The notes under the pieces were generated by a model. It ran no database searches and was not told the origin of the DNA. It saw only the letters and a list, made by a program, of their open reading frames with translations. The translations under genes and the position numbers were made by a program. DNA of 46,506 nt from a virus: positions 1 to 46,506 of IMG/VR virus record IMGVR_UViG_3300046680_000396, one strand, 5' to 3'. This document shows, piece after piece, positions 373 to 46,182 of this stretch. Numbering within the stretch: position 1 is the first letter of the stretch; every line of letters begins with the position of its first letter.

Positions 373-785
373 GCGAAGAACCCGCCGCCCCCGTTGCGGC
401 GCTTGTGGGCGTCCCCGCCGGTACAGGTAGCGCCTTCATCCCCGACTACAAGTTCCCGGGGGCCACGCGCCTGCGCACGGCGGTCGGTTCAACTCTCCTG
501 TTCGCGCTCGTCAACCATCCCCGAGCCACTGACCCCGAAGTCCGAGAGCGGTACCAGCGCCACCGGCACGACTTCCAGGACACAGAGCTTGTGGTGAACG
601 GCGAGACCTATCCGGCGGTCGAAGTCCAAGACGCCGAGATCGGCATCCGCGTTCGCGCTGCGGCTGTGAACGGCCTCACTGTGGTCACCACGTTCCCGGT
701 TGATCAGAACGTCCCCGGCGTCCGCGTGACGTGGCCGGAGAGTGGCGACGCCGACCGGTCTCCTGACGCCGGCCAAGCGCTGTAA
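369..785 (+). CDS. Hypothetical protein, partner of the lipoprotein (copy A)
   Basis: 138 residues; ATG overlaps the stop of the lipoprotein gene by 4 nt. It has no signal peptide or membrane segment. The N-terminal third (ALVGVPAGTGSAFIPDYKFPG) and the middle (HDFQDTELVVNGETYPAVEV) are almost identical to the product of 45781-46170, while the last 20 residues differ. I do not recognise the family. The TAA stop lies inside a copy of the dispersed GCTTTAMAGC element (768-788). Always being paired with the lipoprotein in both cassettes suggests a shared function, perhaps a cytoplasmic partner, but nothing in the sequence shows what that is. Confidence 0.75.
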   Translation: MSEEPAAPVAALVGVPAGTGSAFIPDYKFPGATRLRTAVGSTLLFALVNHPRATDPEVRERYQRHRHDFQDTELVVNGETYPAVEVQDAEIGIRVRAAAVNGLTVVTTFPVDQNVPGVRVTWPESGDADRSPDAGQAL

Positions 786-788
786 AGC
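768..788 (-). repeat. Dispersed GCTTTAMAGC element, copy 1
   Basis: GCCGGC, 5 nt, GCTGTAAAGC. The core contains the stop codon of the 369-785 gene and ends 5 nt before the -35 of the small-RNA promoter. No CCGCGG arm. Confidence 0.85.
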
Positions 789-793
789 GCGCG

Positions 794-822
794 TGTGAGC
801 CGTACCCCACACGCGCTATGCT
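794..822 (+). promoter_or_regulatory. Promoter of candidate small RNA A
   Basis: TGTGAG (794-799), 17 nt, TATGCT (817-822). The same arrangement (TGTGGA, 17 nt, TATGCT) precedes the second copy at 46188-46216. The spacer is also nearly identical in both copies. The -35 is a weak match to the vegetative consensus. The dispersed element immediately upstream could be an operator. Confidence 0.5.
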
Positions 823-828
823 GATCCC

Positions 829-928
829 TGCTTCCTCGTTCAACGCTTTCCTTTCGAGGTGTGTTGTGACTTGCTGGCAATCGAGTTGAGGAAGCGCAGA
901 GCCCCCGCCCTAGTGGCGGGGGTTTTGC
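829..928 (+). ncRNA. Candidate trans-acting small RNA A (~100 nt)
   Basis: The interval runs from about 7 nt after the TATGCT -10 to the T tract of an intrinsic terminator. No frame is kept open in both copies, so it is probably not coding. The 5' end GCTTCCTC (830-837) can pair with GAGGAAGC (888-895). In copy B the corresponding arms are GCTTCCCC and GGGGAGC, a compensatory T-A to C-G change. The loop holds an 18-nt block, ACTTGCTGGCAATCGAGT (869-886), identical in both copies. Its part CTTGCTGGCA is the reverse complement of the TGCCAGCAAG tag in leaders at 7901, 8612 and 9574, and nearly so at 6685, 11570 (minus) and 1029. Antisense control of early mRNAs is inferred. Confidence 0.5.
902..926 (+). 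terminator. Intrinsic terminator of small RNA A
   Basis: CCCCCGCC (902-909), 5-nt loop, GGCGGGGG (915-922), then TTTT. Perfect 8-bp stem. Confidence 0.85.
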
Positions 929-964
929 TTTTCACCTGCGGGTTCGGAATTATCTATAACTCGC

Positions 965-994
965 TTGACGCAAGGTGGGTGGAGGTCTTATCGT
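965..994 (+). promoter_or_regulatory. TTGACG promoter before the small basic protein gene
   Basis: TTGACG (965-970), 18 nt, TATCGT (989-994). Same family as the other CTTGACGC promoters in the window and matched at 46359-46388. A perfect 8-bp hairpin (CCATGCCC/GGGCATGG, 999-1018) lies at the predicted 5' end of the transcript and may stabilise it. Confidence 0.6.
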
Positions 995-1036
995 TTTGCC
1001 ATGCCCGAGGGGGCATGGAAACGGACGGTTGCCAGC

Positions 1037-1141
1037 ATGTCTAAGTCGTTCAGCAAGGGCGAGCGTAAGACCTCCGGAAAGTCTGATCGGGAGTTCCGCC
1101 GGATGCGGAAGACGGCCCGGAAGGCGGAGGGGGAGAAGTGA
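1037..1141 (+). CDS. Small basic protein (34 aa)
   Basis: ATG at 1037; the product is rich in Lys, Arg and Glu, with SKGERKTSGKSDREFRRMRK at residues 6-25 approximately. The same start, leader and first 25 residues recur at the right edge of the window (46432 onward), supporting a real gene. There is no clear Shine-Dalgarno sequence. Instead TTGCCAGCA overlaps the start codon, and this is the segment complementary to the small RNA encoded just upstream. The stop overlaps the GTG of the next gene (GTGA). Function unknown; the charge suggests nucleic-acid or acidic-protein binding. Confidence 0.65.
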   Translation: MSKSFSKGERKTSGKSDREFRRMRKTARKAEGEK

Positions 1142-1836: not shown

Positions 1837-1862
1837 CAGGACTTCTCTCGAAAGGATTGGTA

Positions 1863-2231: not shown

Positions 2232-2245
2232 GCAGCAAGAACAGA

Positions 2246-2275: not shown

Positions 2276-2291
2276 CGTGTTCTCACACTGT

Positions 2292-2312
2292 GCCGGCCAG
2301 GTGCTTTAAAGG
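2292..2312 (-). repeat. Dispersed GCTTTAMAGC element, copy 2
   Basis: GCCGGC, 5 nt, GCTTTAAAGG (last base off consensus). Lies between the two lsr2 genes, downstream of the terminator. Confidence 0.75.
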
Positions 2313-2741: not shown

Positions 2742-2762
2742 GCCGGCCACACGCTTTAAAGC
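2742..2762 (-). repeat. Dispersed GCTTTAMAGC element, copy 3
   Basis: GCCGGC, 5 nt, perfect GCTTTAAAGC, starting 5 nt after the second lsr2 stop. Confidence 0.85.
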
Positions 2763-3049: not shown

Positions 3050-3679
3050 CTACCAGAGCCCGTCTTGGCCTACGGCTGCCGCGTGGCGCTCCCGTTTGAT
3101 CGGGACCATGAGGCCCCGGAAGTGGGGGCCGTACTTGACGAGTATCGGTTCCTCGGGGTCACGGATCATCCAATCCGCCCGACGCTCGCCAGTGTCCGAC
3201 TTCACCAGCCGGAAGCGGGTCGTGAGGCCCATGTCCAATAGGAACACGCTCGACGGGTCCTCATAGCGCTCGAACAGCTCGGCCAGGCCGCGCCAGGCGG
3301 CGGCCGGGGTCATGCCGGTGGCGTCCTCAACGGCCTCGCGGGATGCGCCGATCTGCAACACCAGCCCGTCTCCGGGGAACCAGGAGAGCGTCACGTCCTG
3401 TTTCGGATGCTGGCGACAGAACGAGGTCACGGCGTCGAGCCCTTCGCGGGGGATCTCGACCCTGACTGGCGTTCCGCGGGTTGCTGTAAAGCGTTCAGCC
3501 GGCGCCCAGTCGTGCGCGGCGGCGTACGGGTCACCACCGAGGATTGTCACGCCTTCGGCATCCACGGTGAGAAGGACGCTGCGGATCGAGGGGTTTTTCT
3601 TGTGGACGTGGGCCACGTTGCCCGCGACGCGGCAAAGCGCGTCGGCGTCCATGGTCCATGTGGCTACGGGCTCGCCCAT
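3050..3679 (-). CDS. Hypothetical protein, possibly DnaN (sliding-clamp)-like
   Basis: 209 residues. ATG 3679 is fixed by an AGGAGG 3 nt upstream. The sequence alternates beta strands and short helices. It contains stretches such as IRSVLLTVDAEGVTILGGDP and GMTPAAAWRGLAELFERYE that recall the strand-turn pattern of bacterial sliding-clamp domains. It is about half the length of a three-domain clamp, and the similarity is only by eye, so treat it as a hypothesis. The coding sequence contains a full three-part dispersed element (3474-3503), which encodes protein here without disturbing the frame. Confidence 0.5.
   Translation of the reverse strand: MGEPVATWTMDADALCRVAGNVAHVHKKNPSIRSVLLTVDAEGVTILGGDPYAAAHDWAPAERFTATRGTPVRVEIPREGLDAVTSFCRQHPKQDVTLSWFPGDGLVLQIGASREAVEDATGMTPAAAWRGLAELFERYEDPSSVFLLDMGLTTRFRLVKSDTGERRADWMIRDPEEPILVKYGPHFRGLMVPIKRERHAAAVGQDGLW
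3474..3503 (+). repeat. Dispersed GCTTTAMAGC element, copy 4 (three-part)
   Basis: CCGCGG, 3 nt, GCTGTAAAGC, 5 nt, GCCGGC. Complete copy inside a minus-strand gene. Confidence 0.9.
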
Positions 3680-4106: not shown

Positions 4107-4127
4107 TCTGTAAAGCTGTCGGCCGGC
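4107..4127 (+). repeat. Dispersed GCTTTAMAGC element, copy 5
   Basis: TCTGTAAAGC, 5 nt, GCCGGC, in the short gap between two minus-strand genes. Confidence 0.75.
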
Positions 4128-4634
4128 CTAGTCGTGGTCGTACCAAGCCACGTCGATGCCTTCGGTCGTCACGGTGATGACGGCGTGGTCACCGAAGGCG
4201 GCCCTGAGCACGTTGTCAGCGGCGCCGGACTCGACAGCCTTCCGAAGCGCCCCCGCAAGCGCGTTCACCTCGGGATAGAGGCTGTCCTTTGTGGCCCATC
4301 GGCTCGTCTCGTCGTCCCAACGCTTCGTGCCCATGGTCGGGTGGTAGTCGCCCACGTCCAACGACTCACTGTCGAAGTCGTCGGGGTCCTCCGGGTCCAC
4401 GTCGGCAACGGTCTGGACCCACACGCCGTAGGCGCCGAACTCGCACGGCTCCCCGTCGTTGAAGTACGGCACGGACTGACGCCAGCCGAACCGCTTCACG
4501 TCCTGGTGGCCGATGAGCGGCCGGAGGAGCGCGGCGAACTCCTCATCGGTGACCTGCGGGACGATGGCGGCCGGGTCGTAGGGGTAGACCTCGCCGGACA
4601 GCGGGATTCCGTGGAACGTCAGGGCAGTCTTCAA
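4128..4634 (-). CDS. Hypothetical acidic protein
   Basis: 168 residues. TTG 4634 is chosen because it overlaps the upstream TGA (TTGA) and AAGGAG sits 8 nt before it. The middle is very acidic (VADVDPEDPDDFDSESLDVG). No signal peptide, membrane segment or catalytic motif is apparent. Strands near the C-terminus (HAVITVTTEGIDVAWYDHD) suggest a compact alpha/beta fold. Fourth-to-last gene of the minus operon; function unknown. Confidence 0.65.
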   Translation of the reverse strand: MKTALTFHGIPLSGEVYPYDPAAIVPQVTDEEFAALLRPLIGHQDVKRFGWRQSVPYFNDGEPCEFGAYGVWVQTVADVDPEDPDDFDSESLDVGDYHPTMGTKRWDDETSRWATKDSLYPEVNALAGALRKAVESGAADNVLRAAFGDHAVITVTTEGIDVAWYDHD

Positions 4635-6130: not shown

Positions 6131-6160
6131 CCACGGGTTGCTTTACAGCTTCCGGCCGGC
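6131..6160 (+). repeat. Dispersed GCTTTAMAGC element, copy 6
   Basis: CCACGG (one mismatch), 3 nt, GCTTTACAGC, 5 nt, GCCGGC; non-coding. Confidence 0.85.
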
Positions 6161-6186: not shown

Positions 6187-6218
6187 CCGCGGCGCCTGCT
6201 TTAAAGCTTCCGGCCGGC
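6187..6218 (+). repeat. Dispersed GCTTTAMAGC element, copy 7 (three-part)
   Basis: CCGCGG, 5 nt, GCTTTAAAGC, 5 nt, GCCGGC. Core starts 58 bp after that of copy 6, the closest pair in the window. In this copy the three palindromes are evenly spaced. Confidence 0.9.
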
Positions 6219-6647: not shown

Positions 6648-6698
6648 TTGACACGCTTTAAAGCGTTCGTGCATCGTCTTGTCTCGCCAGCAAGACAC
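6648..6698 (+). promoter_or_regulatory. Early-type promoter and tagged leader, SprT gene
   Basis: TTGACA (6648-6653), then GCTTTAAAGC (6655-6664) in the spacer; the -10 is poor (CATCGT near 6672). CGCCAGCAAGACAC begins at 6685, near the predicted 5' end. Same architecture as 7867 and 9538. Confidence 0.6.
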
Positions 6699-7866: not shown

Positions 7867-7914
7867 TTGACGCACGCTTTAAAGCGTGCCAAGCTTGGCC
7901 TGCCAGCAAGACAC
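7867..7914 (+). promoter_or_regulatory. Early-type promoter with palindromic operator and tagged leader
   Basis: TTGACG (7867-7872) followed by a perfect 18-bp palindrome with the GCTTTAAAGC core (7872-7889) filling the spacer; CAAGCT at 7890-7895 is a poor -10. TGCCAGCAAGACAC (7901-7914) starts at about +1. The palindrome position suggests repression by blocking polymerase. Confidence 0.65.
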
Positions 7915-7938: not shown

Positions 7939-8553
7939 ATGAGCGTTTCGACCGGCACCTACTACCCGAACCGTCCGGGCGCGCGGACTCTCGCGGAAGC
8001 GCGGGCAATGTATATCGGTCACGAGCCGGTTTCCGGGCAGATGGCGCCGGATGGCACGGCTACCGTGTTCGTCGGCTGCCGCATTGCTTACAACGGTCCG
8101 GCGCCGGAAAGCGTCAACACCCCGGGCGAGTTTCACGACTGGATTGTGACCGTCGCCGAGACGTTCGCGAACGGGCCGGAAGAGGTTGAGGACAACGCGG
8201 ACGCGCTGACGGAAACCGAGATAGCGAACCTTAAGGGAACGCGCTACCTCGCCGCTTTCGTCGATGCGAACTACGGCATGCCGCAAGATGACCGCGCACA
8301 CGAATTGTTTCGCTCGATCGGCGAAGCCAAGGATGCGCTTTGGCGTCGGGCCGTTGACCGTGAATCCCGCGTGCGCTACGTGGATACGGCACTTGACGCG
8401 GACCTGTGGACGCGCTTCCCGAGTGTGACCGATGACGCCGAGATCATGCTTTACGCCTTCGACGTGGTGAACGGTGAGATTGTCCGCGAGGAATACCCGA
8501 CGCATCGCCTGTTCATGGGGCCGCGTGGTGGCATCAAGGTTGAGCGGCTTTAA
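7939..8553 (+). CDS. Hypothetical early protein
   Basis: 204 residues from ATG 7939, ribosome site GGAAGG. An acidic centre (ANGPEEVEDNADALTETEI) is followed by a helical part and a strand-rich end. No signal peptide or known motif. The TAA stop is inside a GCTTTAAAGC core (8547-8556), which lacks the GCCGGC arm. Likely early or takeover function from its promoter class; not recognised. Confidence 0.7.
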   Translation: MSVSTGTYYPNRPGARTLAEARAMYIGHEPVSGQMAPDGTATVFVGCRIAYNGPAPESVNTPGEFHDWIVTVAETFANGPEEVEDNADALTETEIANLKGTRYLAAFVDANYGMPQDDRAHELFRSIGEAKDALWRRAVDRESRVRYVDTALDADLWTRFPSVTDDAEIMLYAFDVVNGEIVREEYPTHRLFMGPRGGIKVERL

Positions 8554-8625
8554 AGCGCTGCCTTAGGCACAGCTCCCGCTGTGCTTAGGACAGTGCGGTA
8601 AACCCGCACGCTGCCAGCAAGTCAC
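8547..8625 (+). promoter_or_regulatory. Structured leader with small-RNA complementary tag
   Basis: After a GCTTTAAAGC core (8547-8556) come two hairpins: GCACAGC/GCTGTGC (8567-8584) and GTGCGG/CCGCAC (8593-8609). Then TGCCAGCAAGTCAC (8612-8625), a perfect 14-nt reverse complement of small RNA A (866-879). No TTGAC promoter is seen, so this may be an intra-operon leader. Confidence 0.55.
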
Positions 8626-9537: not shown

Positions 9538-9587
9538 TTGACGCACGCTTTAAAGCCGTGGTTAGCTATCGACTGCCAGCAAGACAC
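9538..9587 (+). promoter_or_regulatory. Early-type promoter and tagged leader
   Basis: TTGACG (9538-9543), GCTTTAAAGC core (9547-9556) in the spacer, TTAGCT (9562-9567) as -10. TGCCAGCAAGACAC (9574-9587) begins at about +1. Same cassette as 7867. Confidence 0.7.
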
Positions 9588-10642: not shown

Positions 10643-10671
10643 GAAAGGACCACCCCGGTTAGGGGTGGTCC
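10643..10671 (-). terminator. Minus-strand intrinsic terminator within operon
   Basis: GGACCACCCC, 5-nt loop, GGGGTGGTCC, then TTTC on the minus strand. Confidence 0.8.
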
Positions 10672-10679
10672 TCACACGC

Positions 10680-10689
10680 GCTTTACAGC
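10680..10689. repeat. Solitary GCTTTACAGC core
   Basis: Core with short flanking symmetry (CGC/GCG) but no GCCGGC arm; between a stop codon and a terminator. Confidence 0.5.
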
Positions 10690-13090: not shown

Positions 13091-13120
13091 CCGCGGAGCG
13101 CTTTAAAGCTTCCGGCCGGC
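13091..13120 (+). repeat. Dispersed GCTTTAMAGC element, copy 8 (three-part)
   Basis: CCGCGG, 3 nt, GCTTTAAAGC, 5 nt, GCCGGC, 4 nt after the terS stop. Cleanest copy in the window. Confidence 0.95.
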
Positions 13121-13658: not shown

Positions 13659-13688
13659 GCCGGCCAAGCGCTGTAAAGCATTCCGCGG
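13659..13688 (-). repeat. Dispersed GCTTTAMAGC element, copy 9 (three-part)
   Basis: GCCGGC, 5 nt, GCTGTAAAGC, 3 nt, CCGCGG, directly after the stop of the His-rich gene. With copy 8 it brackets that gene in inverted orientation. Confidence 0.95.
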
Positions 13689-15155: not shown

Positions 15156-16040
15156 ATGCGCATTCAGCGTACCCCGCAGGTAGCTTTCTTCACCATCGTC
15201 CCGAACGCGTCGGCGCGTGATCACGCCCTGTCGTTCACGGCTCGGGGCATCCTGACCTATCTCCTGTCGCTGCCGTCCGGCCGCTCCGAGACGGTCATCA
15301 GCCTGTCTGAGAAGTCGGTGGAGGGCCGCAAGGCCGTGTCTGCCGCGATGGCGGAGCTTGAGAAGCGCGGCTACCTGGCGCGTAAGCGCGTCAAGGGCGA
15401 GCAGGGCACGATCACCACTGAGGTTGTCGTCTTCGACGTGCGGGACGGTGCATCTTCCCAGGTCGCGCCGATCGGCACTCCAGTGCCGATCGGTCAGCCG
15501 GTCGCCGGTTCGTCGGTCGATAACCCCATTGAAGACTTGGTAGAAAACTCCCCCCTCCCTACCCCCGTCGTGTCGGCGCCGGTTCTCGCCGAGTCGGCCC
15601 CGGAGGGGCGGGCGGGAGGTGAGATATCTCGATCGGAAAACCTCCTCAGCGAGGTGAGCCAGTCTGACCGGCGGTTGCACCTGTCGGCCCGCGACATGCG
15701 GACGCTGGCGCCTCTGGTCGAGACCTGGTTCGAGCGGGGCGCGGACAAGCGGCTGATCTCGCTGACGTTGACTGCGGGGCTCCCGGAGGAGATCCAGCAC
15801 CCGGCGGGGCTGCTGCGGAAGCGCCTCGAAGACAAGATGCCCACGGCGGCCCTCGCGGCCCCTGTGGCTGCCGTTCAGGCCGTCCGGCATGAGTGCCACG
15901 ACTGCGGCCGTCCCGTGGCCTCTGCGGGCCTCTGCGGGGCGTGCACCGAATCGGTTCAGGCCCCTGTCGTCCCCGGCTCCCGTTCGTGGCGTGACATGGC
16001 CCTGTCGTTCGGGGTCGGAGCCCTTCCCGTGGCTGCGTAG
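15156..16040 (+). CDS. Winged-helix DNA-binding protein with C-terminal zinc ribbon
   Basis: 294 residues from ATG 15156. Residues 20-95 (LSFTARGILTYLLSLPSG, EKSVEGRKAVSAAMAELEKR, GYLARKRVKGEQG) form a winged helix-turn-helix as in plasmid replication initiators and many Streptomyces mobile-element proteins. A Pro/Ser/Ala linker, a helical domain (160-225) and a CxxC/CxxC ribbon (HECHDCGRP, GLCGACTES) follow. With its own palindrome-controlled promoter inside the late operon, it looks like a lysogeny-expressed moron, a repressor or a replication initiator. Which one cannot be decided from sequence. Confidence 0.7.
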   Translation: MRIQRTPQVAFFTIVPNASARDHALSFTARGILTYLLSLPSGRSETVISLSEKSVEGRKAVSAAMAELEKRGYLARKRVKGEQGTITTEVVVFDVRDGASSQVAPIGTPVPIGQPVAGSSVDNPIEDLVENSPLPTPVVSAPVLAESAPEGRAGGEISRSENLLSEVSQSDRRLHLSARDMRTLAPLVETWFERGADKRLISLTLTAGLPEEIQHPAGLLRKRLEDKMPTAALAAPVAAVQAVRHECHDCGRPVASAGLCGACTESVQAPVVPGSRSWRDMALSFGVGALPVAA

Positions 16041-16066: not shown

Positions 16067-16096
16067 CCGCGGGGCGCTTTAAAGCGCCCCGCCGGC
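16067..16096 (+). repeat. Dispersed GCTTTAMAGC element, copy 10 (three-part)
   Basis: CCGCGG, 3 nt, GCTTTAAAGC, 5 nt, GCCGGC, between the wHTH gene and terL. Confidence 0.95.
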
Positions 16097-19947: not shown

Positions 19948-19966
19948 GCCAGCTCCAAACACACAC

Positions 19967-19999
19967 AGAGGCTCACCCCTGACGGGTGGGCCTCTTTCG
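19967..19999 (+). terminator. Intrinsic terminator before capsid gene
   Basis: AGAGGCTCACCC, 5-nt loop, GGGTGGGCCTCT, then TTCGTTT. Probably tunes capsid relative to protease. Confidence 0.8.
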
Positions 20000-20040
20000 T
20001 TTGGCCGCCTTGGGGCGGCCCCTTGGGGGAGGTATCCACT

Positions 20041-21315: not shown

Positions 21316-21327
21316 GCCGACTGGTTA

Positions 21328-24599: not shown

Positions 24600-24620
24600 C
24601 AAGTGCTGGCGGGGCTTTCT
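24589..24620 (+). terminator. Terminator overlapping dispersed element
   Basis: GCCCCGCC (24589-24596), 11-nt loop, GGCGGGGC (24608-24615), then TTTCT. Confidence 0.65.
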
Positions 24621-32084: not shown

Positions 32085-33045
32085 GACTGTTCTCAACGTC
32101 GCTAGGAACCAGCTCGGCACGATCGAGAACTCGGCCGGCGACACGCTTTACAGCGACTGGTACGGGTTGGCCGATGAGTCCTGGTGCGACATGTTCGTGT
32201 CGTGGGTGGGGGCTACCGCCGGGGCGGCTGACATCATCGGCCACTTCGCCTACTGCCCGTCTCACGTCGATTGGTTCAAGAACCGGGGCCAGTGGGGCAA
32301 GACGCCGAAGGTCGGCGCCGTGGTGTTCTTCGACTGGAACGGCGACGGGGAGGCCGATCACGTCGGCATCGTGGAGACGGTCAACCCTGACGGCTCTGTG
32401 GGCACGATCGAGGGCAACTCCACGAACCCGAGCGGCGGCAGGTTCGGCGTGTTCCGCCACACGGAGTGGCCCCGGTACATCCTGGGCTACGGCTATCCGG
32501 CGTATGACGCCGTGGGGAACGTGACCGCTGGCGGGGCGAAGACCTACACCGTGAAGCGCGGTGACACCCTGTGGGGTATCGCTGCGGTTCTGGGCGTGTC
32601 CCTGTCGGCGCTGCTGGCTGCGAACCCTGGCCCGGCATCTCACCCGGCCGCGATTCAGCCGGGCGACGTGATCCGTGTCCCGCAGGCTACGGCCCCGGTT
32701 ACGCCGGGACCGACTGTAAAGCCTCCGGCCGGCAAGCCGACTCCGACCCCGAAGCCTCCGGCGCCCGTGAGCAAGCCTCCGAAGCCTGTGAGCAAGCCTC
32801 CGGCTCCGCCGACCAGCCCGGCGCATACGCGGGTGCTGGCGTACGGCATGTCTGGTGACGACGTGCGTCACCTTCAGCAGTGCCTAGCCGATCGGGGATA
32901 CCGCCAGCCGGTCACCGGCTGGTTCGGGCCTATCACGTCTTCGAACGTCCACTACTTCCTGTCTCTGCGTTCCTGGCTGTGGAGCACGGGCGGACCGGAC
33001 GCCACTGCCGGGCCGATGACTCAGGCCGCAGTCTGCAAGTTCTAA
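32071..33045 (+). CDS. Endolysin: CHAP-like, LysM and peptidoglycan-binding domains
   Basis: 324 residues; ATG 32071 chosen (GGGGGAG 4 nt upstream) over TTG 32068. CHAP-like amidase/peptidase domain 1-145 with catalytic Cys39 (ESWCDMF) and His97 (DHVGIVE). A LysM domain follows at about 154-200 (YTVKRGDTLWGIAAVLGVSL). Then a Pro/Lys linker of PPAP/KPP repeats and a C-terminal peptidoglycan-binding domain (GMSGDDVRHLQQCLADRGYR). It lyses the host wall at the end of infection. Copies 19 and 20 of the dispersed element lie in its coding sequence, one in the catalytic domain and one in the linker. Confidence 0.92.
   Translation: MTTTETVLNVARNQLGTIENSAGDTLYSDWYGLADESWCDMFVSWVGATAGAADIIGHFAYCPSHVDWFKNRGQWGKTPKVGAVVFFDWNGDGEADHVGIVETVNPDGSVGTIEGNSTNPSGGRFGVFRHTEWPRYILGYGYPAYDAVGNVTAGGAKTYTVKRGDTLWGIAAVLGVSLSALLAANPGPASHPAAIQPGDVIRVPQATAPVTPGPTVKPPAGKPTPTPKPPAPVSKPPKPVSKPPAPPTSPAHTRVLAYGMSGDDVRHLQQCLADRGYRQPVTGWFGPITSSNVHYFLSLRSWLWSTGGPDATAGPMTQAAVCKF
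32133..32153 (-). repeat. Dispersed GCTTTAMAGC element, copy 19
   Basis: GCCGGC, 5 nt, GCTTTACAGC, in the endolysin catalytic domain. Confidence 0.85.
32713..32733 (+). repeat. Dispersed GCTTTAMAGC element, copy 20
   Basis: ACTGTAAAGC, 5 nt, GCCGGC, in the endolysin linker. Confidence 0.75.
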
Positions 33046-33437: not shown

Positions 33438-33467
33438 CCGCGGGGCGCTTTACAGCGCTCAGCCGGC
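33438..33467 (+). repeat. Dispersed GCTTTAMAGC element, copy 21 (three-part)
   Basis: CCGCGG, 3 nt, GCTTTACAGC, 5 nt, GCCGGC, at the end of the late operon. Confidence 0.95.
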
Positions 33468-33482
33468 GTGGTGAACGGGAAA

Positions 33483-33516
33483 CCCCCGGCCCTTCGGGGC
33501 CGGGGGTCCTTTTGCG
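33483..33516 (+). terminator. Intrinsic terminator ending the late operon
   Basis: CCCCCGGCCC, 4-nt loop TTCG, GGGCCGGGGG, then TCCTTTT. Confidence 0.92.
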
Positions 33517-35136: not shown

Positions 35137-35584
35137 GCTAGCTCCCAAATGCTTGTCCATGCCTAACGAATCCGTTGCGACCAGAGGATTCGTTAAACGG
35201 GTGATTGGTCGGGGCAGACGGTAGCAGTGCGCTGACGCTACGGCAACTGTGGCGAGTCGTGAGTGAGCCGTGGGTGTAACCACTGGGACCCCGAGAAGGC
35301 CGGTACTCGTTAGCTACGCTCAGTTAGCCTGCAATAGGCCGTTGACGTGGGACGAGCCCCTGCCGGACATGTGCTACATGGCGTAATAGTTCGACGTCAA
35401 GACAGTCGCGCGGCTTGGCTCAAATGGGGCTACTCCGGCCCTGAGCTGGGAAGTAAAGGCAAGGTAAAGTCCGGCTCGGCTTGTCAAGGGCGGGCCGATT
35501 CACCTAAAGTGTCCCGTGGGTAACAACGTTACCCGTTGCGCTTGCCATTTTATCGCGTGACATTAATGGATGAGGATTGTGGCC
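35137..35584. other. ~450-bp regulatory gap upstream of integrase; candidate attP region
   Basis: Contains a perfect 10-bp-arm inverted repeat TAACGAATCC/GGATTCGTTA (35164-35173 and 35186-35195) just upstream of int, which may be an operator or a crossover-flanking site. GGGTAAC/GTTACCC (35518-35534) lies upstream of the divergent HTH gene. The rest has no credible gene. Serine-integrase attP sites are commonly next to int, but the crossover cannot be located without attB. Confidence 0.5.
35518..35534 (+). promoter_or_regulatory. Palindromic operator candidate before the HTH gene
   Basis: GGGTAAC, 3 nt, GTTACCC. It covers a possible -35 (TTACCC), with TATCGC 16 nt downstream as -10; position suggests autoregulation. 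Confidence 0.5.
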
Positions 35585-36016
35585 GTGAAAAGCGACAGGA
35601 TGATTCCCGTCTCTAACTCCGAGGTCGCCGCGCTGCTTCGCTCCGGCAAATCCGCGAGCGCGCTTGCCAAGCAGTGGGGCGTTCAGCCTCACGCAGTGCG
35701 CCGCGTGGCGCGGCTGGCGGGGTGGTCGCCGGGGAACAGCACGATTGCGGTTCTGCCGTGGCTCGGGGTCGGGCCTGCGGCGCACTCGCCTGCGGCCCGT
35801 GGCCTTCGAGCCCTTGCCCGCGTCCGCGCCGGGGAGACGCTGACGCCGCGCAACGAGGTGACTTTCCGGAACTGGCTCGCGGAGCGGGACGGTACCGGCA
35901 CGGTTGTCATGTACGACAAGGACATGGGTCCTAATCCGGCGTCGCCGGAACACGGAGGGTTCTATTACGCCCCGCGTAGAACAGACACTCCGATAGACGA
36001 GTACTACCAAGAGTAG
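35585..36016 (+). CDS. HTH protein, candidate phage regulator
   Basis: 143 residues; GTG 35585 is chosen (AGGA 8 nt upstream), with ATG 35570 as an alternative. Residues 10-45 (NSEVAALLRSGKSASALAKQ, WGVQPHAVRRVARLAGW) form a helix-turn-helix. The C-terminal part (GETLTPRNEVTFRNWLAERD, TVVMYDKDMGPNPAS) is unfamiliar and ends in an acidic/aromatic tail. It lies divergent from the integrase behind a palindrome, where immunity repressors or their antagonists usually lie. Could be the repressor or a Cro-like protein. Confidence 0.6.
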   Translation: MKSDRMIPVSNSEVAALLRSGKSASALAKQWGVQPHAVRRVARLAGWSPGNSTIAVLPWLGVGPAAHSPAARGLRALARVRAGETLTPRNEVTFRNWLAERDGTGTVVMYDKDMGPNPASPEHGGFYYAPRRTDTPIDEYYQE

Positions 36017-36980: not shown

Positions 36981-37795
36981 GCGCCGGACACCGGTCCGTC
37001 TCACAGCTCACGACGTGGGCACGCTGCGGCGAGTCCTACAGGCTCGAACGCGTCGCCAAGGCCCCGCAGACGCCAGCCGCATGGACACTCCAGGGCACGG
37101 CCGTTCACGCGGCCGTGGAAGCCTTCGAGCTGTCCGGCCGCACGCTCGGCCTGACTCAAGCCCTGGCGGTGTACTTCAACGCGTGGGACAGCGGCATAGC
37201 GGCCCTCACGGCCGCCGAACCCGACAGGTCGAAGTGGCTCACAGGCTCGAAGGCGATCAGCGGCTTTAAAGACGTTGGCCGGCGCAGGGATCGAGGCGCC
37301 GATCAGGTCAGGGCCTACATCGAGTTCTCCCAGTCGAACCCATTCGACATCTGGCAGACCCCGGACGGCCCCGCCGTCGAGCTTCAGTTCTCCATCGTTC
37401 TCGGCGGCGTCAAGGTCGTTGGCTTCATCGATCAGGTTCTAGAGCTGCCGGACGGTGACCTGTGGGTCAGAGACGTAAAGACCGGCTCCAAGCTCCCGGA
37501 CAGCCCGCTACAGCTCGGCGTCTACGCCGAAGCCGTTGAGCAGACGTACGGGATTCGCCCCCACTGGGGCGACTACTTCATGTGCAAGAACAACGCACCA
37601 ACCAAGCCAGCCGACTTGAGCGGCTACACGACGGCCCGTCTAGGCCGCTGGTTCGCGCGGCTAGACCACGCAGTCAACGCAGGCGTCTTCATCCCGAATC
37701 CGGGCGATGCCTGCCGCGTCTGCTCCGTGTCGCAGTACTGCGATGCGGTTGGTGACGATCGAGAAACCTACGGAGGTTCAGACCTTGACGCTTAA
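36977..37795 (+). CDS. RecB/Cas4-like PD-(D/E)XK nuclease
   Basis: 272 residues if started at CTG 36977, which overlaps the upstream TGA; the first canonical in-frame start is GTG 37115. The earlier start is preferred because the family signature SQLTTWARCGESYRLERVAK lies before 37115. Nuclease core: QGTAVHAAVEAFE, then VVGFIDQVLELPDGDLWVRD with the catalytic Asp, and VKTGSK. A C-terminal Cys cluster (DACRVCSVSQYC) probably completes an iron-sulfur or zinc site with Cys near the N-terminus. It probably processes DNA ends during replication and recombination. Contains dispersed-element copy 22. Confidence 0.85.
   Translation: MSAGHRSVSQLTTWARCGESYRLERVAKAPQTPAAWTLQGTAVHAAVEAFELSGRTLGLTQALAVYFNAWDSGIAALTAAEPDRSKWLTGSKAISGFKDVGRRRDRGADQVRAYIEFSQSNPFDIWQTPDGPAVELQFSIVLGGVKVVGFIDQVLELPDGDLWVRDVKTGSKLPDSPLQLGVYAEAVEQTYGIRPHWGDYFMCKNNAPTKPADLSGYTTARLGRWFARLDHAVNAGVFIPNPGDACRVCSVSQYCDAVGDDRETYGGSDLDA
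37263..37283 (+). repeat. Dispersed GCTTTAMAGC element, copy 22
   Basis: GCTTTAAAGA, 5 nt, GCCGGC, in the nuclease gene. Confidence 0.75.
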
Positions 37796-38237
37796 GTACA
37801 ACGCTTCACTGAAGTACAGCGGTGCGCACGACTCGCCATGGGTGACCGTCGAGTCCGACAACGAAGAGGAGCTGCACGCGGCTCTGTCGTCTCTCGGCGC
37901 CCCCGATACGGACTTCTGGGCCGCCCTTGGCCGGGCCATCGGCGCGTTCAAGACGGGTGCTCTCCTGGGCGAGGTTCTGGGCGCTCAGGCCGCGCCCCCG
38001 GAGCAGGCTGCACCGCAGTGGCAGGGCGGCAACGTCGCGCCCCCGGCGTGGGCCGCTGGCCCGTCTCAGCCGGCCGGAGGCTTGACAGCTCCCCCTGCGG
38101 CTGCGCCGGGTGAGGCAAAGTACTGCGAGCACGGCATGCGCACCCTGAAGAGCGGCACCGGCAGCAACGGCAAGCCCTATATGCGGTACGACTGCCCGAG
38201 CCGGGTGTGTCCGGCCGAGTGGGGAAACAACCGCTAA
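37785..38237 (+). CDS. Hypothetical replication-block protein with C-terminal zinc ribbon
   Basis: 150 residues; TTG 37785 is fixed by GGAGG 8 nt upstream. The N-terminus (LTLKYNASLKYSGAHDSPWV) is strand-rich, followed by a Pro/Ala/Gly/Gln-rich linker. A ribbon CEHGMRTLKSGTGSNGKPYM then DCPSRVCPAEW resembles zinc modules at the C-termini of actinophage replication proteins. The layout of an ordered N-terminus plus flexible linker recalls single-strand binding proteins, but no OB-fold is obvious. Confidence 0.6.
   Translation: MTLKYNASLKYSGAHDSPWVTVESDNEEELHAALSSLGAPDTDFWAALGRAIGAFKTGALLGEVLGAQAAPPEQAAPQWQGGNVAPPAWAAGPSQPAGGLTAPPAAAPGEAKYCEHGMRTLKSGTGSNGKPYMRYDCPSRVCPAEWGNNR
38069..38089 (-). 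repeat. Dispersed GCTTTAMAGC element, copy 23 (degenerate)
   Basis: GCCGGC, 5 nt, GCTTGACAGC; core has one change. Confidence 0.6.
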
Positions 38238-40272: not shown

Positions 40273-40574
40273 GTGTCGAGTACCCGCCGAAGCTGATGCG
40301 GTTCGGGCTGTCGTCTGAGGAACTGACCGACGCTGTTGACGTGTTCCTGTGGGGCGCAGCGTTCCGCGTGATCGGGACCGGCGCGGAGCAGTACGAGAAG
40401 CACGACAAGAACGGCCAACCCTTCCAGGCGTTCGAGGAGATGACCCCGCTGGAGCTGGTCCAGAATGCCCGCGAAGAGGTGCAAGATCTTGGCGTCTACG
40501 CGGCGATGACGGATCTCCGGCTGGCCCGGCTGCAAGCGGCCTTGGCGGGCACGGTCGTGGGTGATGCCCGATGA
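40269..40574 (+). CDS. Hypothetical protein of the replication block
   Basis: 101 residues from GTG 40269 (GTGA-type overlap). Helical; the part QAFEEMTPLELVQNAREEVQ then DLGVYAAMTDLRLARL weakly resembles MazG-like nucleotide pyrophosphohydrolases, but the metal-binding ExxE pair is only partly present. Overlaps the next gene by 4 nt. Confidence 0.6.
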   Translation: MSVEYPPKLMRFGLSSEELTDAVDVFLWGAAFRVIGTGAEQYEKHDKNGQPFQAFEEMTPLELVQNAREEVQDLGVYAAMTDLRLARLQAALAGTVVGDAR

Positions 40575-40933
40575 CGGATCTCGTGGTGGAACTGGAAGTC
40601 TCGACTTCCGCTCTCGCAGGCATCTACCGGTGGCAGGGCTGGCCCCTGGCGCTGTGTGAGGAGTCCACGCCTACGGCGCTGGATCTGACCGAGCTGATTA
40701 CGCACGTCGCGTGTGAGGCCGTGGGAGAAGAAACCGGCTCGTACTACAGCCTTGGCCGCATCGTCGCGTTCTCCGCGACCGAGGTCCCCGGCGAGGTAGA
40801 GCTAGCCCTGAAGATCGGGCGGGCGTATCTGCCCTTGGGAGACGACGCGGACAGCGCGCCGGCCAACCGCTTTACAGCACGGCCCGCGGAATCGCGGCAT
40901 GACGACCTGGGACCCGAGGGGGCGAGCAATTGA
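40571..40933 (+). CDS. Hypothetical protein
   Basis: 120 residues from ATG 40571. Mixed alpha/beta (VVELEVSTSALAGIYRWQGW), acidic C-terminus. No known motif. The stop overlaps the TTG of the phosphoesterase gene (TTGA). Dispersed-element copy 24 lies near its 3' end. Confidence 0.65.
   Translation: MTDLVVELEVSTSALAGIYRWQGWPLALCEESTPTALDLTELITHVACEAVGEETGSYYSLGRIVAFSATEVPGEVELALKIGRAYLPLGDDADSAPANRFTARPAESRHDDLGPEGASN
40858..40889 (-). repeat. Dispersed GCTTTAMAGC element, copy 24 (three-part)
   Basis: GCCGGC, 5 nt, GCTTTACAGC, 5 nt, CCGCGG, intragenic. Confidence 0.9.
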
Positions 40934-41697: not shown

Positions 41698-41704
41698 GGT
41701 GCCT

Positions 41705-42277
41705 GTGCTGACGCACGATGACTACGAGTGGGTGTCTGAGATCGTGAAGCGGGCGGCGGCGACCGTTGCCCGCAAGTGGCCCGGCATCGACCGGGACGAC
41801 ATCGGACAAGAGATATGGGTCAAGATCCTGCCCGCCTGGTCCAAGCTGGTACGGGATGACGACTACGTGTTCAAGGTGGCGTGTAGGGCCGGGAACGGCT
41901 ACGCCGCTGACGAGCGCTACTACTACACGCACATGTCGGCGGAATGGGTCTACACCCCGGCGGAAGTCAGAGGCCTGTTCCGGGAAGCGTTCTTCGACCC
42001 CGGCGCGTGGGAACAGATGCCTACTGAAGAGACCTCGAACACGCTCCGCGCGGGCGGCGTGGTGGTGTCCCTGTGGGACCTGCGGGAGGTGTGGGGCGAG
42101 TTGTCAGACGCTCAGCGCCATGCGATCGAGCACGCGTATCGGGACGCGGGCGACGGGGAAGGGTTGGACCCGGCGGCACGGAAGACCCTTCAGAGGGCCA
42201 TTGACACGGCGACGCGCGCTCTCAACGGCAGGATGGCGACCCGTGGGGACCGAAGCCGGTACGAGCTGGCGGTGTGA
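41705..42277 (+). CDS. Sigma factor-like protein
   Basis: 190 residues from GTG 41705 (GAGG 5 nt upstream); ATG 41684 and GTG 41699 are in frame. The N-terminal part (VKRAAATVARKWPGIDRDDI, GQEIWVKILPAWSKLVRDDD) resembles sigma region 2. The C-terminal part (LREVWGELSDAQRHAIEHAY then LDPAARKTLQRAIDTATRAL) resembles the region 4 helix-turn-helix. Divergent sigma-like proteins in actinophages are candidates for late-gene activation. It is the last gene of the replication block before a strong terminator. Assignment is by pattern only. Confidence 0.6.
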   Translation: MLTHDDYEWVSEIVKRAAATVARKWPGIDRDDIGQEIWVKILPAWSKLVRDDDYVFKVACRAGNGYAADERYYYTHMSAEWVYTPAEVRGLFREAFFDPGAWEQMPTEETSNTLRAGGVVVSLWDLREVWGELSDAQRHAIEHAYRDAGDGEGLDPAARKTLQRAIDTATRALNGRMATRGDRSRYELAV

Positions 42278-42282: not shown

Positions 42283-42312
42283 GCCGGCCAAACGCTGTAA
42301 AGCAAGCCGCGG
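42283..42312 (-). repeat. Dispersed GCTTTAMAGC element, copy 25 (three-part)
   Basis: GCCGGC, 5 nt, GCTGTAAAGC, 3 nt, CCGCGG, 5 nt after the sigma-like gene's stop. Confidence 0.95.
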
Positions 42313-42434: not shown

Positions 42435-42665
42435 ATGGCACTGCACATGCTTGGCAAGGACCCGAACAGCGACAACGGGGACTCACCAACCGTGTACTAC
42501 GACGACGAGAGCGGCAACTACCTGCTTCAGGGCTGGAAGGTACTCGACGCGGACCGGCTTGCCCAGATGCGCATCCCGGAGCATGAAACCGTGATCGAGT
42601 TCCCCACCCGCATGATGCAGTTCTTCCCGGAGGTGAACGGTGGCGGCAGCCCCGACGCTCGCTGA
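42435..42665 (+). CDS. Small acidic protein, first gene of the DUF6879-XRE module
   Basis: 76 residues from ATG 42435, ribosome site GAGGGAG. Acidic, strand-turn pattern (SPTVYYDDESGNYLLQGWKV). Small genes of this type often precede DUF6879/DUF5753 pairs in Streptomyces. Overlaps the next gene by 26 nt. Confidence 0.65.
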   Translation: MALHMLGKDPNSDNGDSPTVYYDDESGNYLLQGWKVLDADRLAQMRIPEHETVIEFPTRMMQFFPEVNGGGSPDAR

Positions 42666-43155
42666 TCTGCTCAGGTCGGCCCAGAGCACGGCCGACCACT
42701 TGGAGATGAGAGACGGGTACATGCGAGACTCCCCGTCCTTCATCGCGTGGCAGGGCGGGGACCGCGAGATGCCGGATGCTCCGGCTAGCCGCGAGTGGCG
42801 GCAGCTGGTGAAGGAGACCGTTGCCCGTGGGGTGTCGGTGCGGCGTGCTCGGATCGTCTCCGAGCCGCTGAGTGACTACGCGCGCTTCGAGTACGACATC
42901 ACCCGCGAACACAACATCGGTGCAGGCGAAGACGTTCGATGGCTGCCACGGTCCAGGGCATCGCGGCTAGCGCTGCCCGGCAACGACTTCTGGCTGTTCG
43001 ACGGGCAGATTCTCAGGTTCGGCCTGTTCGCCGGGAATGGCTCGCTTGTGGGCCATGTCGTCGACGAAAACCCGGACGCTTTAAAGCTCTGCGCCGGCGC
43101 GTTTGACGCGGTGTGGCGCCTCGCGATTCCGCACGAGGACTACCAGCCCGCCTAA
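42640..43155 (+). CDS. DUF6879-family protein
   Basis: 171 residues from GTG 42640 (GGAGG 6 nt upstream). TLADLLRSAQSTADHLEMRD, VARGVSVRRARIVSEPLSDY, RWLPRSRASRLALPGNDFWL and LCAGAFDAVWRLAIPHEDY match DUF6879 closely. The family pairs with XRE-DUF5753 regulators in many actinomycetes and is suspected to be the effector of an Scr1-like toxin-antitoxin arrangement. The biochemical activity is not established. Dispersed-element copy 26 lies near the 3' end. Confidence 0.85.
   Translation: MAAAPTLADLLRSAQSTADHLEMRDGYMRDSPSFIAWQGGDREMPDAPASREWRQLVKETVARGVSVRRARIVSEPLSDYARFEYDITREHNIGAGEDVRWLPRSRASRLALPGNDFWLFDGQILRFGLFAGNGSLVGHVVDENPDALKLCAGAFDAVWRLAIPHEDYQPA
43078..43098 (+). repeat. Dispersed GCTTTAMAGC element, copy 26
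   Basis: GCTTTAAAGC, 5 nt, GCCGGC, in the DUF6879 gene (codons for ALKLCAGA). Confidence 0.85.
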
Positions 43156-43160
43156 CACTC

Positions 43161-44009
43161 GTGACGACTTCCCCCTCATCCAGCGCTCAACAGGCCAGAG
43201 AAGCACTCGGCAGGCGCCTGCGCGAGATCCGCAAGTCATCGGGTCTCACCGCGCGGGCGCTTGCTGAGCTTGCCGGGTGGCACGAAACGAAGTGCTCCCA
43301 GCTTCAGGCCGGGAAACGGCCGCCATCCGAGGACGACATACGGATGTGGGCCCGGTTGTGCGGCGCTGAAGATCAGATTGACGATCTGATCGCTACGGCC
43401 CGCAACGTCGAAGGGATGTATGTCGAGTGGCGACGGCTGGAACAGACCGGCTTAGCCCGGCTTCAGCGTGCCTCGGTCGGCCTGTTGGAGGAGACGCGAC
43501 ACTTCAAGATCTATTGCTCTAGCTTCATGCCGGGTGTGCTGCAAGCGGCGCAGTACATCACGGCGCTACTGACGATGATCACGGAGTTCCGGGGCATCCC
43601 GAACGATGTTGATGAAGCCGTTGCCGCGAGACTGGATCGGTCGAAGGTTGTCCGGCAGGGCGATCACAGGTTTTCGATCCTGGTTGAAGAGGCGGTGCTC
43701 CGCTACCGCATCGGTGATGACGAAGCGATGGTGGACCAGCTCGCTCAGCTTCTCGCGTCTATGTCGCTGCCGAGTGTGAGCCTCCGTATTATCCCGGATT
43801 CGGCGCGTCGGACCATGTGGCCGCTAGAGACGTTCATCGTCTATGACGACAAGCTTGTGACGGTCGAACTGTTGAGCGCGCATGTGCGCGTCACGACACC
43901 CACGGACGTTGACGGTTACGTTCGGGCCTTCTCTGAACTGTCGAAGATGGCTGTTTACGGCAAGGAAGCTCGGTCCTTGATAATGGCCGCCATGCAGGTT
44001 CTTGAATAG
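43161..44009 (+). CDS. XRE-family regulator with DUF5753 domain
   Basis: 282 residues from GTG 43161, 5 nt after the DUF6879 stop. N-terminal XRE helix-turn-helix (LGRRLREIRKSSGLTARALA, ELAGWHETKCSQLQAGKRPP). Then the DUF5753/Scr1-type domain (YCSSFMPGVLQAAQYITALL, AARLDRSKVVRQGDHRFSIL, VSLRIIPDSARRTMWPLETF). Such proteins bind their own promoter and are thought to control a small partner. Whether this pair defends the lysogen against other phages or regulates lysogeny is open. Confidence 0.92.
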   Translation: MTTSPSSSAQQAREALGRRLREIRKSSGLTARALAELAGWHETKCSQLQAGKRPPSEDDIRMWARLCGAEDQIDDLIATARNVEGMYVEWRRLEQTGLARLQRASVGLLEETRHFKIYCSSFMPGVLQAAQYITALLTMITEFRGIPNDVDEAVAARLDRSKVVRQGDHRFSILVEEAVLRYRIGDDEAMVDQLAQLLASMSLPSVSLRIIPDSARRTMWPLETFIVYDDKLVTVELLSAHVRVTTPTDVDGYVRAFSELSKMAVYGKEARSLIMAAMQVLE

Positions 44010-44014
44010 GTCTG

Positions 44015-44486: not shown

Positions 44487-44716
44487 GCCTTCCAACAAGG
44501 CCAAGCCGGAGGCAGGGCGCGATGCAACCGGGTGACCTGGTAACCCTGCGGGACACGGAATACCGGTATGTGGTGCAGCCGTACCCGGCTCATGAGCAGT
44601 TCTGCGTGCCTGTCGTGAGCATCGCCGATGAGGGGACGGGCACTGACGTGAGGCTCGTTTTCGCTGATGACGTGAGCCCGGCGGAGGGCGCTCCCGAGGC
44701 CGGCGGGGAGCTGTAA
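44483..44716 (+). CDS. Hypothetical small beta protein
   Basis: 77 residues from GTG 44483 (GTGA overlap, GGGAGG upstream); ATG 44522 would give a compact 64-residue product. MQPGDLVTLRDTEYRYVVQP suggests a small barrel. The stop lies in dispersed-element copy 27. Confidence 0.6.
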   Translation: MSLPTRPSRRQGAMQPGDLVTLRDTEYRYVVQPYPAHEQFCVPVVSIADEGTGTDVRLVFADDVSPAEGAPEAGGEL

Positions 44717-44728
44717 AGCGAACCGCGG
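44699..44728 (-). repeat. Dispersed GCTTTAMAGC element, copy 27 (three-part)
   Basis: GCCGGC, 5 nt, GCTGTAAAGC, 3 nt, CCGCGG. The core supplies the stop codon of the preceding gene. Confidence 0.95.
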
Positions 44729-44738
44729 CCCTTTAAGC

Positions 44739-44787
44739 CACCCGTCTGCCTGTGACCATCCCCCCCGTGTGGCCAGGCAGGCGGGTG
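44739..44787 (+). terminator. Long-stem hairpin after copy 27
   Basis: CACCCGTCTGCCTG (44739-44752) pairs with CAGGCAGGCGGGTG (44774-44787), one G-T pair. No T tract; may be a terminator of another type or an RNA-processing signal. Confidence 0.45.
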
Positions 44788-44820
44788 TTCCACAACCACA
44801 ACCCGAAGGAATGACACCCG

Positions 44821-45003
44821 TTGAGCAAGAAGAATGAAGACCCGCCGAACATCAGCGGGGTTCCGCAACTAGACGCCTACCTTGCAACCCGCCTGACCCG
44901 CGACGAGCAGGAGCAGATGCGACAAACCTACGAAGACGGGGACCCGGAGGGCAGCCAGGCGATCATCAACAAGGCGAACATCCGGAACGGGAACAAGAAG
45001 TAG
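44821..45003 (+). CDS. Hypothetical small hydrophilic protein
   Basis: 60 residues from TTG 44821 with AAGGA about 11 nt upstream. Charged and helical (LTRDEQEQMRQTYEDGDPEG), Asn/Lys-rich end. No motif known. Confidence 0.55.
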   Translation: MSKKNEDPPNISGVPQLDAYLATRLTRDEQEQMRQTYEDGDPEGSQAIINKANIRNGNKK

Positions 45004-45007
45004 CGCC

Positions 45008-45202
45008 ATGGTCTACGAGCCTCCGCCGAACCCCGCCGACTGGATTTGTGACGCACTGCCCTCGCGCCACACGTCCGAGTCGGCGGACTCGCGTCATGCG
45101 ACCCCTTCCCGCCAGGAGGAGCCGATGACGTGGGAAGCAATACGCGCCGCCCGGCCCGTTTACGACTACGAACCGCGCCACGGTGGGCAGACCGCCGCCT
45201 AG
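45008..45202 (+). CDS. Hypothetical short protein
   Basis: 64 residues from ATG 45008. AGGAGG lies 5 nt before an in-frame ATG at 45125, which would leave only 25 residues (MTWEAIRAARPVYDYEP), so either start is possible. No motif; the upstream part has a short GAGTC/GACTC hairpin. It precedes the lipoprotein gene. Confidence 0.45.
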   Translation: MVYEPPPNPADWICDALPSRHTSESADSRHATPSRQEEPMTWEAIRAARPVYDYEPRHGGQTAA

Positions 45203-45235
45203 TTATGCACATCCCTATTAGCGCAGGGAGAGCAC

Positions 45236-45784
45236 ATGAACCGGAAAGCAATCGCGACGCTGATCCTCGCCGGACTGGTCATCGTCGGCACAAGCGGCGC
45301 ATCCGGCGGATGCGGGAGCAGTGGAGACGGAGGCACATCCGCGCCCGCCGTGGGGGCGGGCGGTGAGCAGTCCGCGCCGAGTGAGGAGCACAGCACGGCC
45401 GAAGAGAGCCCCAACGGCCCGAGCGAACCGCCGGACAAGGGACACGACCCGTGCAACGCCCATCTGTCGCCGATCACGGTTGGTCACAAGGTCTCGGCAA
45501 CCCTCACGGTCGGCCCGTGTGCCGACCAGCCCGAAGAGTACAGCGGGACTTTGACGCTCCAGTACGGAACCGGCGACCTGCCGAACGTAAAGTGGACGAC
45601 GGCAACCCTGATCCCGATCTACAGCGAGAACGCGACGCAACCGATCTCGGCCCCGTGCCAAGATGCGTACTGGGTACTCGCGTACGACGCAGCAGGACGC
45701 GACGCCAACGGGAAAGACTTCGAGAGCACTCACAGCGTCTTCCTCGAAGAGAACCAGTTCCCACGGAAGGCAAACTGCCCATGA
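45236..45784 (+). CDS. Putative lipoprotein (complete copy)
   Basis: 182 residues from ATG 45236 with AGGGAGAG upstream. Signal peptide at 1-25 (MNRKAIATLILAGLVIVGTS) with lipobox ending GGC, so Cys27 is probably lipidated after cleavage. A Ser/Ala/Glu/Pro linker (28-70) leads to a compact domain shared with the fragment at 1-372. The domain has conserved cysteines and no enzyme motif. A secreted lipoprotein in a temperate phage that is cassette-duplicated suggests superinfection exclusion or host-surface modification; this is inference. Confidence 0.8.
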   Translation: MNRKAIATLILAGLVIVGTSGASGGCGSSGDGGTSAPAVGAGGEQSAPSEEHSTAEESPNGPSEPPDKGHDPCNAHLSPITVGHKVSATLTVGPCADQPEEYSGTLTLQYGTGDLPNVKWTTATLIPIYSENATQPISAPCQDAYWVLAYDAAGRDANGKDFESTHSVFLEENQFPRKANCP

Positions 45785-46170
45785 ACGAAGATCCTGCCGC
45801 CCCTGTCGTGGCGCTTGTGGGCGTGCCCGCCGGAACGGGTAGCGCCTTCATCCCCGACTACAAGTTCCCCGGAACCACGCGACGCCTACAGTCGGCGGTC
45901 GGCACAACGCTTCTGTTCGCGTTCGTCAACCATCCCCGGGCTACTGACCCTGAGGTACAGGAGCGCTACAAGGGGCACCGCCACGACTTCCAAGACACAG
46001 AGCTTGTGGTGAATGGCGAGACCTATCCGGCGGTCGAAGTGCAAGACTCCGAGATCGGCATCCGCGTGCGTGCGGCATCCGTCAACGGCTTTACCGTGGT
46101 TGCGACGGTCCCGGAGGACCAGAACGTCCCCGCCGTCAGCGTCACTTGGCCGCAGGGCGACGCCGGCTGA
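45781..46170 (+). CDS. Hypothetical protein, partner of the lipoprotein (copy B)
   Basis: 129 residues from ATG 45781, overlapping the lipoprotein stop by 4 nt. Closely matches 369-785 except for the last ~20 residues. No signal peptide. The 3' end overlaps dispersed-element copy 28. Function unknown, linked to the lipoprotein by its repeated pairing. Confidence 0.75.
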   Translation: MNEDPAAPVVALVGVPAGTGSAFIPDYKFPGTTRRLQSAVGTTLLFAFVNHPRATDPEVQERYKGHRHDFQDTELVVNGETYPAVEVQDSEIGIRVRAASVNGFTVVATVPEDQNVPAVSVTWPQGDAG

Positions 46171-46182
46171 GCGCTGTAAAGC
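46162..46182 (-). repeat. Dispersed GCTTTAMAGC element, copy 28
   Basis: GCCGGC, 5 nt, GCTGTAAAGC. It overlaps the stop of the 45781 gene and ends 5 nt before the small-RNA B -35, as copy 1 does for small RNA A. Confidence 0.85.

Follow-up and report, generated by a model that had tools for sequence, protein, structure and literature searches.

The window, as we call the whole stretch of DNA analysed here, comprises the 46,506 nucleotides (nt) of the IMG/VR virus record IMGVR_UViG_3300046680_000396. It belongs to a phage whose host is probably Streptomyces, the genus being suggested by relatives of its TerL in two Streptomyces genomes; a search of GenBank phages with the DNA of positions 1-24000 returned no match. 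Among the genes, which were called with a custom script, are a large serine integrase, as expected of a temperate phage (33598-35136, minus strand), and an immunity repressor homologue with a helix-turn-helix (HTH) and a Stoperator-type domain (35570-36016, plus strand). Dispersed over both strands of the 46.5 kb window are 28 copies of a composite element, CTKTAMAG-N6-GCCGGC, one of them with a degenerate core, which are likely to be sites of this repressor, the presumed binder of the core. An original prediction had placed the element at 28 positions in both orientations, and all of them hold it:

768-788, minus strand: over the stop codon of the open reading frame (ORF) 369-785
2292-2312, minus strand: 20 nt past a strong terminator-like hairpin (2243-2272)
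2742-2762, minus strand: just 3' of the stop of the Lsr2-like gene 2398-2736
3483-3503, plus strand: with CCGCGG, inside the minus-strand gene 3050-3679
4107-4127, plus strand: immediately past the stop of the minus-strand gene 4128-4634
6140-6160, plus strand: intergenic
6198-6218, plus strand: with CCGCGG, intergenic
13100-13120, plus strand: with CCGCGG, 3' of the small terminase gene stop
13659-13679, minus strand: with CCGCGG, between genes
16076-16096, plus strand: with CCGCGG, closely upstream of the large terminase gene
19216-19236, plus strand: inside the portal gene
19792-19812, plus strand: with CCGCGG, inside the prohead protease gene
22295-22315, plus strand: inside gene 22253-22675
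22982-23002, minus strand: inside gene 22689-23069
24579-24599, plus strand: with CCGCGG, intergenic, overlapping the terminator stem 24589-24615
27731-27751, minus strand: inside the tape-measure gene
27851-27871, minus strand: inside the tape-measure gene, second copy
29378-29398, minus strand: inside the long ORF 28059-31784, which follows the tape measure
32134-32154, minus strand: inside the endolysin gene; CTGTACAG at the orthologous place in a sister phage (G007)
32713-32733, plus strand: inside the endolysin gene
33447-33467, plus strand: with CCGCGG, 15 nt ahead of the terminator hairpin 33482-33507
37263-37283, plus strand: inside the PD-(D/E)XK nuclease gene
38069-38089, minus strand: degenerate, with core CTGTCAAG
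40858-40878, minus strand: with CCGCGG, inside gene 40571-40933
42283-42303, minus strand: with CCGCGG, 3' of the stop of gene 41699-42277, adjoining a hairpin
43078-43098, plus strand: inside gene 42640-43155
44699-44719, minus strand: with CCGCGG, over the stop codon of gene 44522-44716
46162-46182, minus strand: over the stop codon of gene 45781-46170

The core first proposed, GCTTTAMAGC followed after 5 nt by GCCGGC, is exact in 15 copies, the others having GCTGTAAAGC or 1-2 changes; because only these 15 fit the 10-mer, we regard CTKTAMAG (27 copies, plus the single CTGTCAAG) as the better description. At up to 3 mismatches the window holds 36 matches against 1.04 expected from dinucleotide shuffles (the largest shuffle gave 4), which rules out an origin by chance, as had been argued; 28 of these matches are the true composites and the remaining 8 are overlapping reverse reads or chance hits. 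The geometry is rigid. Over the window and five relative contigs, of which one comprises two genomes, 158 of 158 pairs of core and GCCGGC are separated by 6 nt, or by 5 nt when measured from the 10-mer; no other gap was shorter than 36 nt, so that the invariant gap noted earlier extends to the relatives. GCCGGC belongs to an element in 28 of its 30 occurrences in the window and divides 14/14 between the two side orientations. All 11 copies of CCGCGG lie inside elements, 3 or 5 nt off the 10-mer as had been described (4 or 6 nt off the core), and the relative G004 shows the same two distances in 12 of 12 cases. By this geometry, flank and core centres are 11-13 bp apart, which puts the flanks about one helical turn beyond each half-site. 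Beyond the motif letters the information content falls to background, save for weak base preferences, and the element is therefore not a mobile repeat.

Half of the copies (14/28) are not fully coding, compared with 17% of random 21-mers (p=5e-5); those at 768, 44699 and 46162, for example, lie over stops. Of the six strongest terminator-like hairpins, four (2243, 10645, 24589, 33482) have a core no more than 40 nt away. The mixed orientation that had been reported holds for intergenic composites, which show no preference (about 22:25), but not for coding sequence, where, in the direction of transcription, most asymmetric cores read CTTTACAG (11:1 for the window), a bias to which codon constraint could contribute. 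A pair of neighbouring genes is present twice, in similar versions, close to either end of the window (139-785 and 45350-46170), and each pair is followed by an element over a stop codon.

At fourfold-degenerate third positions, the window is 91-98% identical to four relatives (five genomes: G001, both genomes of G003, G004 and G006) within elements and 59-67% elsewhere (Fisher p 9e-4 to 8e-9; pooled p-values err on the optimistic side, since sites orthologous between relatives are non-independent). A partial contig, G024, gave 83% in elements against 61% outside (p=0.011), while in the sister G007, which is without the composite element, the values were 43% and 49%. The element thus passes a codon-aware control, and it is the DNA motif itself that is under selection; it has no identity among known RNA families, matching none in Rfam. 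Most relatives are metagenomic contigs, and G003 (IMGVR_UViG_3300046678_000420, 89,947 bp) apparently consists of two related phage genomes in tandem, both element-rich.

The many copies, half of them in genes, might bring to mind a mobile or REP-like repeat, or an artefact of codon usage. We give such readings practically no credence, and they are already contradicted by the weak sequence preference beyond the motif letters, by the recurrence of copies at matching places in relatives and by the third-position conservation, which rules out codon usage. Nor is the element a host repeat or equally common in the host, as the original prediction had allowed for: across 199 Streptomyces genomes the loose pattern turns up at just 26 places, 25 of which have CTGTACAG, a core used by none of 125 unique phage composite elements. 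Among the IMG/VR contigs that carry multiple exact matches to GCTTTACAGC-N5-GCCGGC are the TerL relatives of the window phage; the kinship of the rest was only partly checked.

Gene 35570-36016 matches phrog_357, a transcriptional repressor. Its family profile finds the immunity repressor of TipsytheTRex (PDB 7r6r, E=1.4e-16) over both domains and nearly the whole protein, hhalign against two cluster A repressors gave 98.7%, and the single Foldseek match below 1e-3 to an AF2 model (pLDDT 85) is again 7r6r (E 1.5e-6). The protein is a homologue of the two-domain (HTH plus Stoperator) immunity repressor of the cluster A phages L5 and TipsytheTRex. It is also the HTH protein noted earlier at 35585, so that the likeness to cluster A stoperators, at first a matter of layout, now extends to the repressor; the winged-HTH protein 15156-16040 looks replication-initiation-type. 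Among GenBank phages the repressor finds only three mycobacteriophage repressors (E 4-10). Since a single-protein search of viral contigs gave one locus only, its relatives were taken from whole contigs, and tblastn located a homologue in the L5-type contigs spanning its region. By eye, the printed alignment has R45, K81 and R108, critical according to the 7r6r paper, replaced in the window protein, which would fit a new binding site.

A comparison of repressors and dispersed sites among the relatives is informative. Repressors 56-85% identical to that of the window go with CTKTAMAG plus GCCGGC. At 40% (G011) there are 17 scattered CTKTAMAG, none with GCCGGC. Contigs with TerL about 61-65% identical have repressors of 32-44% identity and GTTTAMAC cores, mostly co-directional with transcription and in some cases between TTGACA and a -10-like hexamer. 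G007 (53%) has CTGTACAG, near TTGAC at two places and without GCCGGC at the orthologue of 32134. G015 and G018 have no L5-type match and instead possess a phiC31-type repressor segment (32-34% identity) together with repeats of CTCCCAAATTTGGGAG; these palindromes number 17 in G018 and about 10 in G015. Broadly, dispersed site and repressor type thus change together.

It is barely conceivable that the window itself has a phiC31-type system, in which dispersed palindromes are under a large repressor like phiC31 c. Like the window phage, phiC31 is a temperate Streptomyces phage with dispersed palindromes, copies of TACTCACGTGAGTA that we take to be the published CIRs, and G015 and G018 show that a c-like segment and palindromes can occur together. 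The phiC31 repressor gene is, however, unrelated and far larger (19274-21325), a tblastn search with c hits G015 and G018 alone among the contigs retrieved and nothing in the window or the searched element-bearing contigs, and the window carries an L5-type repressor instead. A phiC31-type repressor in the window is thereby already contradicted.

The original prediction overlooked six further cores in the window that are without GCCGGC. Four of them adjoin promoter-like TTGAC or TTGAG, and another lies beside a terminator:

6656-6663, plus strand: core-only CTTTAAAG, next to TTGACA and ahead of gene 6728; presumed operator
7877-7884, plus strand: core-only CTTTAAAG, next to TTGACG and ahead of gene 7939; presumed operator
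8548-8555, plus strand: core-only CTTTAAAG, next to TTGAGC and ahead of gene 8643; presumed operator, with the weakest promoter match
9548-9555, plus strand: core-only CTTTAAAG, next to TTGACG and ahead of gene 9605; presumed operator
10681-10688, plus strand: core CTTTACAG, lacking GCCGGC and next to the terminator hairpin 10645-10673

The last of these is not promoter-like and recurs in G001, G003 and G006. When the window is pooled with G001, G003, G004 and G006, TTGAC lies 1-8 nt upstream of 12 cores, of which 9 are palindromic and 3 asymmetric, compared with 28:139 elsewhere (p=4e-5), and none of the 12 carries GCCGGC. Three of them are in the window, its fourth site (8548) having TTGAGC; the promoters at genes 6728, 7939 and 9605 were read from the letters only, by the 1-8 nt distance of the core from TTGAC, and a consensus scan did not list them. 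The same split is found in the GTTTAMAC clade (12:1 near TTGAC versus 33:74 elsewhere). Neither clade uses the doubly changed core (CTGTACAG and GTGTACAC, respectively). Because two independent weak halves predict about 20 such cores in 125, the data suggest that one half is read strictly and the other loosely, as would be expected of a two-domain monomer, and recognition of the core may be asymmetric, given that CTGTACAG is never used. This absence is also compatible with a homodimer that has an affinity threshold.

The core-only copies bear on the options of nucleoid binding, partition or packaging (Lsr2, parS-like or pac-like sites) raised by the original prediction, which fare worse than the stoperator reading and which we consider very unlikely. 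The window does have two Lsr2-like genes. Lsr2 prefers AT-rich DNA, however, and the element is rich in GC and exactly spaced. Partition or packaging would leave both promoter-linked copies and about 28 dispersed copies unexplained. Four additional cores adjoin promoter-like sequence, and a different repressor type goes with a different dispersed motif.

Of the possible explanations, we favour with good confidence a repressor-stoperator system, in which the elements serve the phage's own L5/cluster A-type repressor as binding sites throughout the genome. Its recognition sequence would be the quasi-palindromic CTKTAMAG. Core-only copies beside TTGAC, usually the perfect palindrome CTTTAAAG, would be operators blocking initiation of the left-arm genes, and the copies over gene ends and genes would be stoperators that stop stray prophage transcription. 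The latter nearly always have GCCGGC at its fixed distance, often with CCGCGG opposite, and these flanks probably provide extra contacts for a second repressor molecule, a second domain or a partner protein, making the complex strong enough to block an elongating polymerase from either side. With 28 sites, the repressor could switch off the whole dormant phage genome.

In cluster A, 20-30 dispersed sites, many at gene ends and some at promoters, diverge along with the repressors (PMC6550527, PMC3029335); these bind as monomers to asymmetric 13-14 bp sites without dyad symmetry, and a reversed site does not block elongation (PMC9283540, PMC6550527). The window resembles this in its homologous two-domain repressor (L5 gp71, Bxb1 gp69, TipsytheTRex) and in copy number, with 28 composites plus core-only copies. 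The differences that had been pointed out in sequence, palindromy and modular flanks are real: cluster A sites mostly end in TCAAG and are oriented with transcription, whereas CTKTAMAG is a palindrome or one change away from it, with GC-palindrome flanks at fixed spacing and half of the copies inside genes. Closer in host is the Streptomyces phage R4 (cluster BD), which has been described as a repressor-stoperator system (PMC10276819) and has a repressor of the same family (gp29, annotated 'similar to L5 gp71'; A1 profile match 1.9e-18). A dyad count puts the asymmetric CTGTGCAAGTG, with about 9 copies, first among the repeated motifs of R4, which, unlike the window, has no CTKTAMAG core, no CCGCGG and 95 freely scattered GCCGGC.

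Several points weigh against the interpretation we favour. A quasi-palindromic core and orientation-free intergenic copies (about 22:25) are unlike cluster A. The base-contacting residues of 7r6r appear not to be conserved, so homology makes no prediction of the site in the window, and we infer the binding of the repressor to the core, like the silencing and the role of the flanks. The repressors of G007 (53%) and L149 (54%) are equally distant from that of the window and have the recognition-helix motif GVKPQTVRKAG in common, yet only the L149 contig has the composite.

The flanks are striking for their scarcity elsewhere. Outside elements they have the largest deficits of any palindrome, GCCGGC being seen 3 times against 59.2 expected and CCGCGG not at all against 35.7, in company with CTCGAG and GTCGAC. 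Because G015 and G018 also avoid both palindromes though they lack the element, the avoidance is probably due to restriction pressure from hosts, and retention inside the elements in spite of it indicates that the flank letters are needed. The XhoI site CTCGAG is absent from the window (14.7 expected) and the SalI site GTCGAC is rare, a restriction-avoidance signature. These deficits, shared by phages with and without the element, could be taken to mean that GCCGGC and CCGCGG are host restriction or methylation sites kept in the elements so that methylation tunes repressor binding as an epigenetic switch. We consider this improbable, as a binding-site requirement by itself explains the retention and no methyltransferase was seen in the window, where not every gene was scanned against families.

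A possible, though rather doubtful, explanation is that the composites are sites for two proteins forming a joint silencer, with the L5-type repressor on the core and another host or phage protein on GCCGGC/CCGCGG; such a flank reader might be a partner that bridges or stiffens DNA. Consistent with this are the distinct palindromes at a fixed 6-nt spacing, the lack of flanks at the TTGAC-linked operators, the flankless core of G007 at the orthologue of 32134, and the recurrence in relatives of element-free GCCGGC in similar non-coding contexts without a core. There is, however, no candidate gene with a clean co-occurrence. The XRE/DUF5753 protein (43113-44009) shows just 42-57% conservation in some of the phages that bear the element, and G011, which lacks the element, has it too, so that we reject it as the flank reader. 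The two element-free GCCGGC of the window (10278, 11680) are non-coding, without a recognisable core, and have similar contexts in G001, G003 and G006.

Returning to the repressor-stoperator system, we tentatively suggest that its stoperators are modular: the core would serve as a plain operator at promoters, and an added GC palindrome (GCCGGC, with or without CCGCGG), perhaps recognised by another domain, an extra repressor molecule or a protein partner, might convert it elsewhere into an orientation-independent roadblock. This may be methylation-sensitive, because both palindromes look like host restriction targets. New here are the quasi-palindromic cores, the GC-palindrome flank at non-promoter sites and the lack of a fixed orientation between genes. 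In the cluster A system it is an open question by what means a small repressor halts elongating RNA polymerase at its stoperators (PMC9283540). The window phage and its relatives offer natural paired sites, with the core alone at presumed promoters and core plus flank where elongation is presumably hit, which makes the minimal addition for a roadblock directly testable. They would also extend the repressor family to quasi-palindromic sites, with a dispersed site that differs between related phages along with the repressor.

A minor observation concerns the early regions of four further contigs (G012, G013, G019 and G021), which contain many near-identical promoter-like units that have a -35 resembling TATTTGACA, a spacer containing GTTTAAAC and the conserved leader TGTCAGCGAGA.

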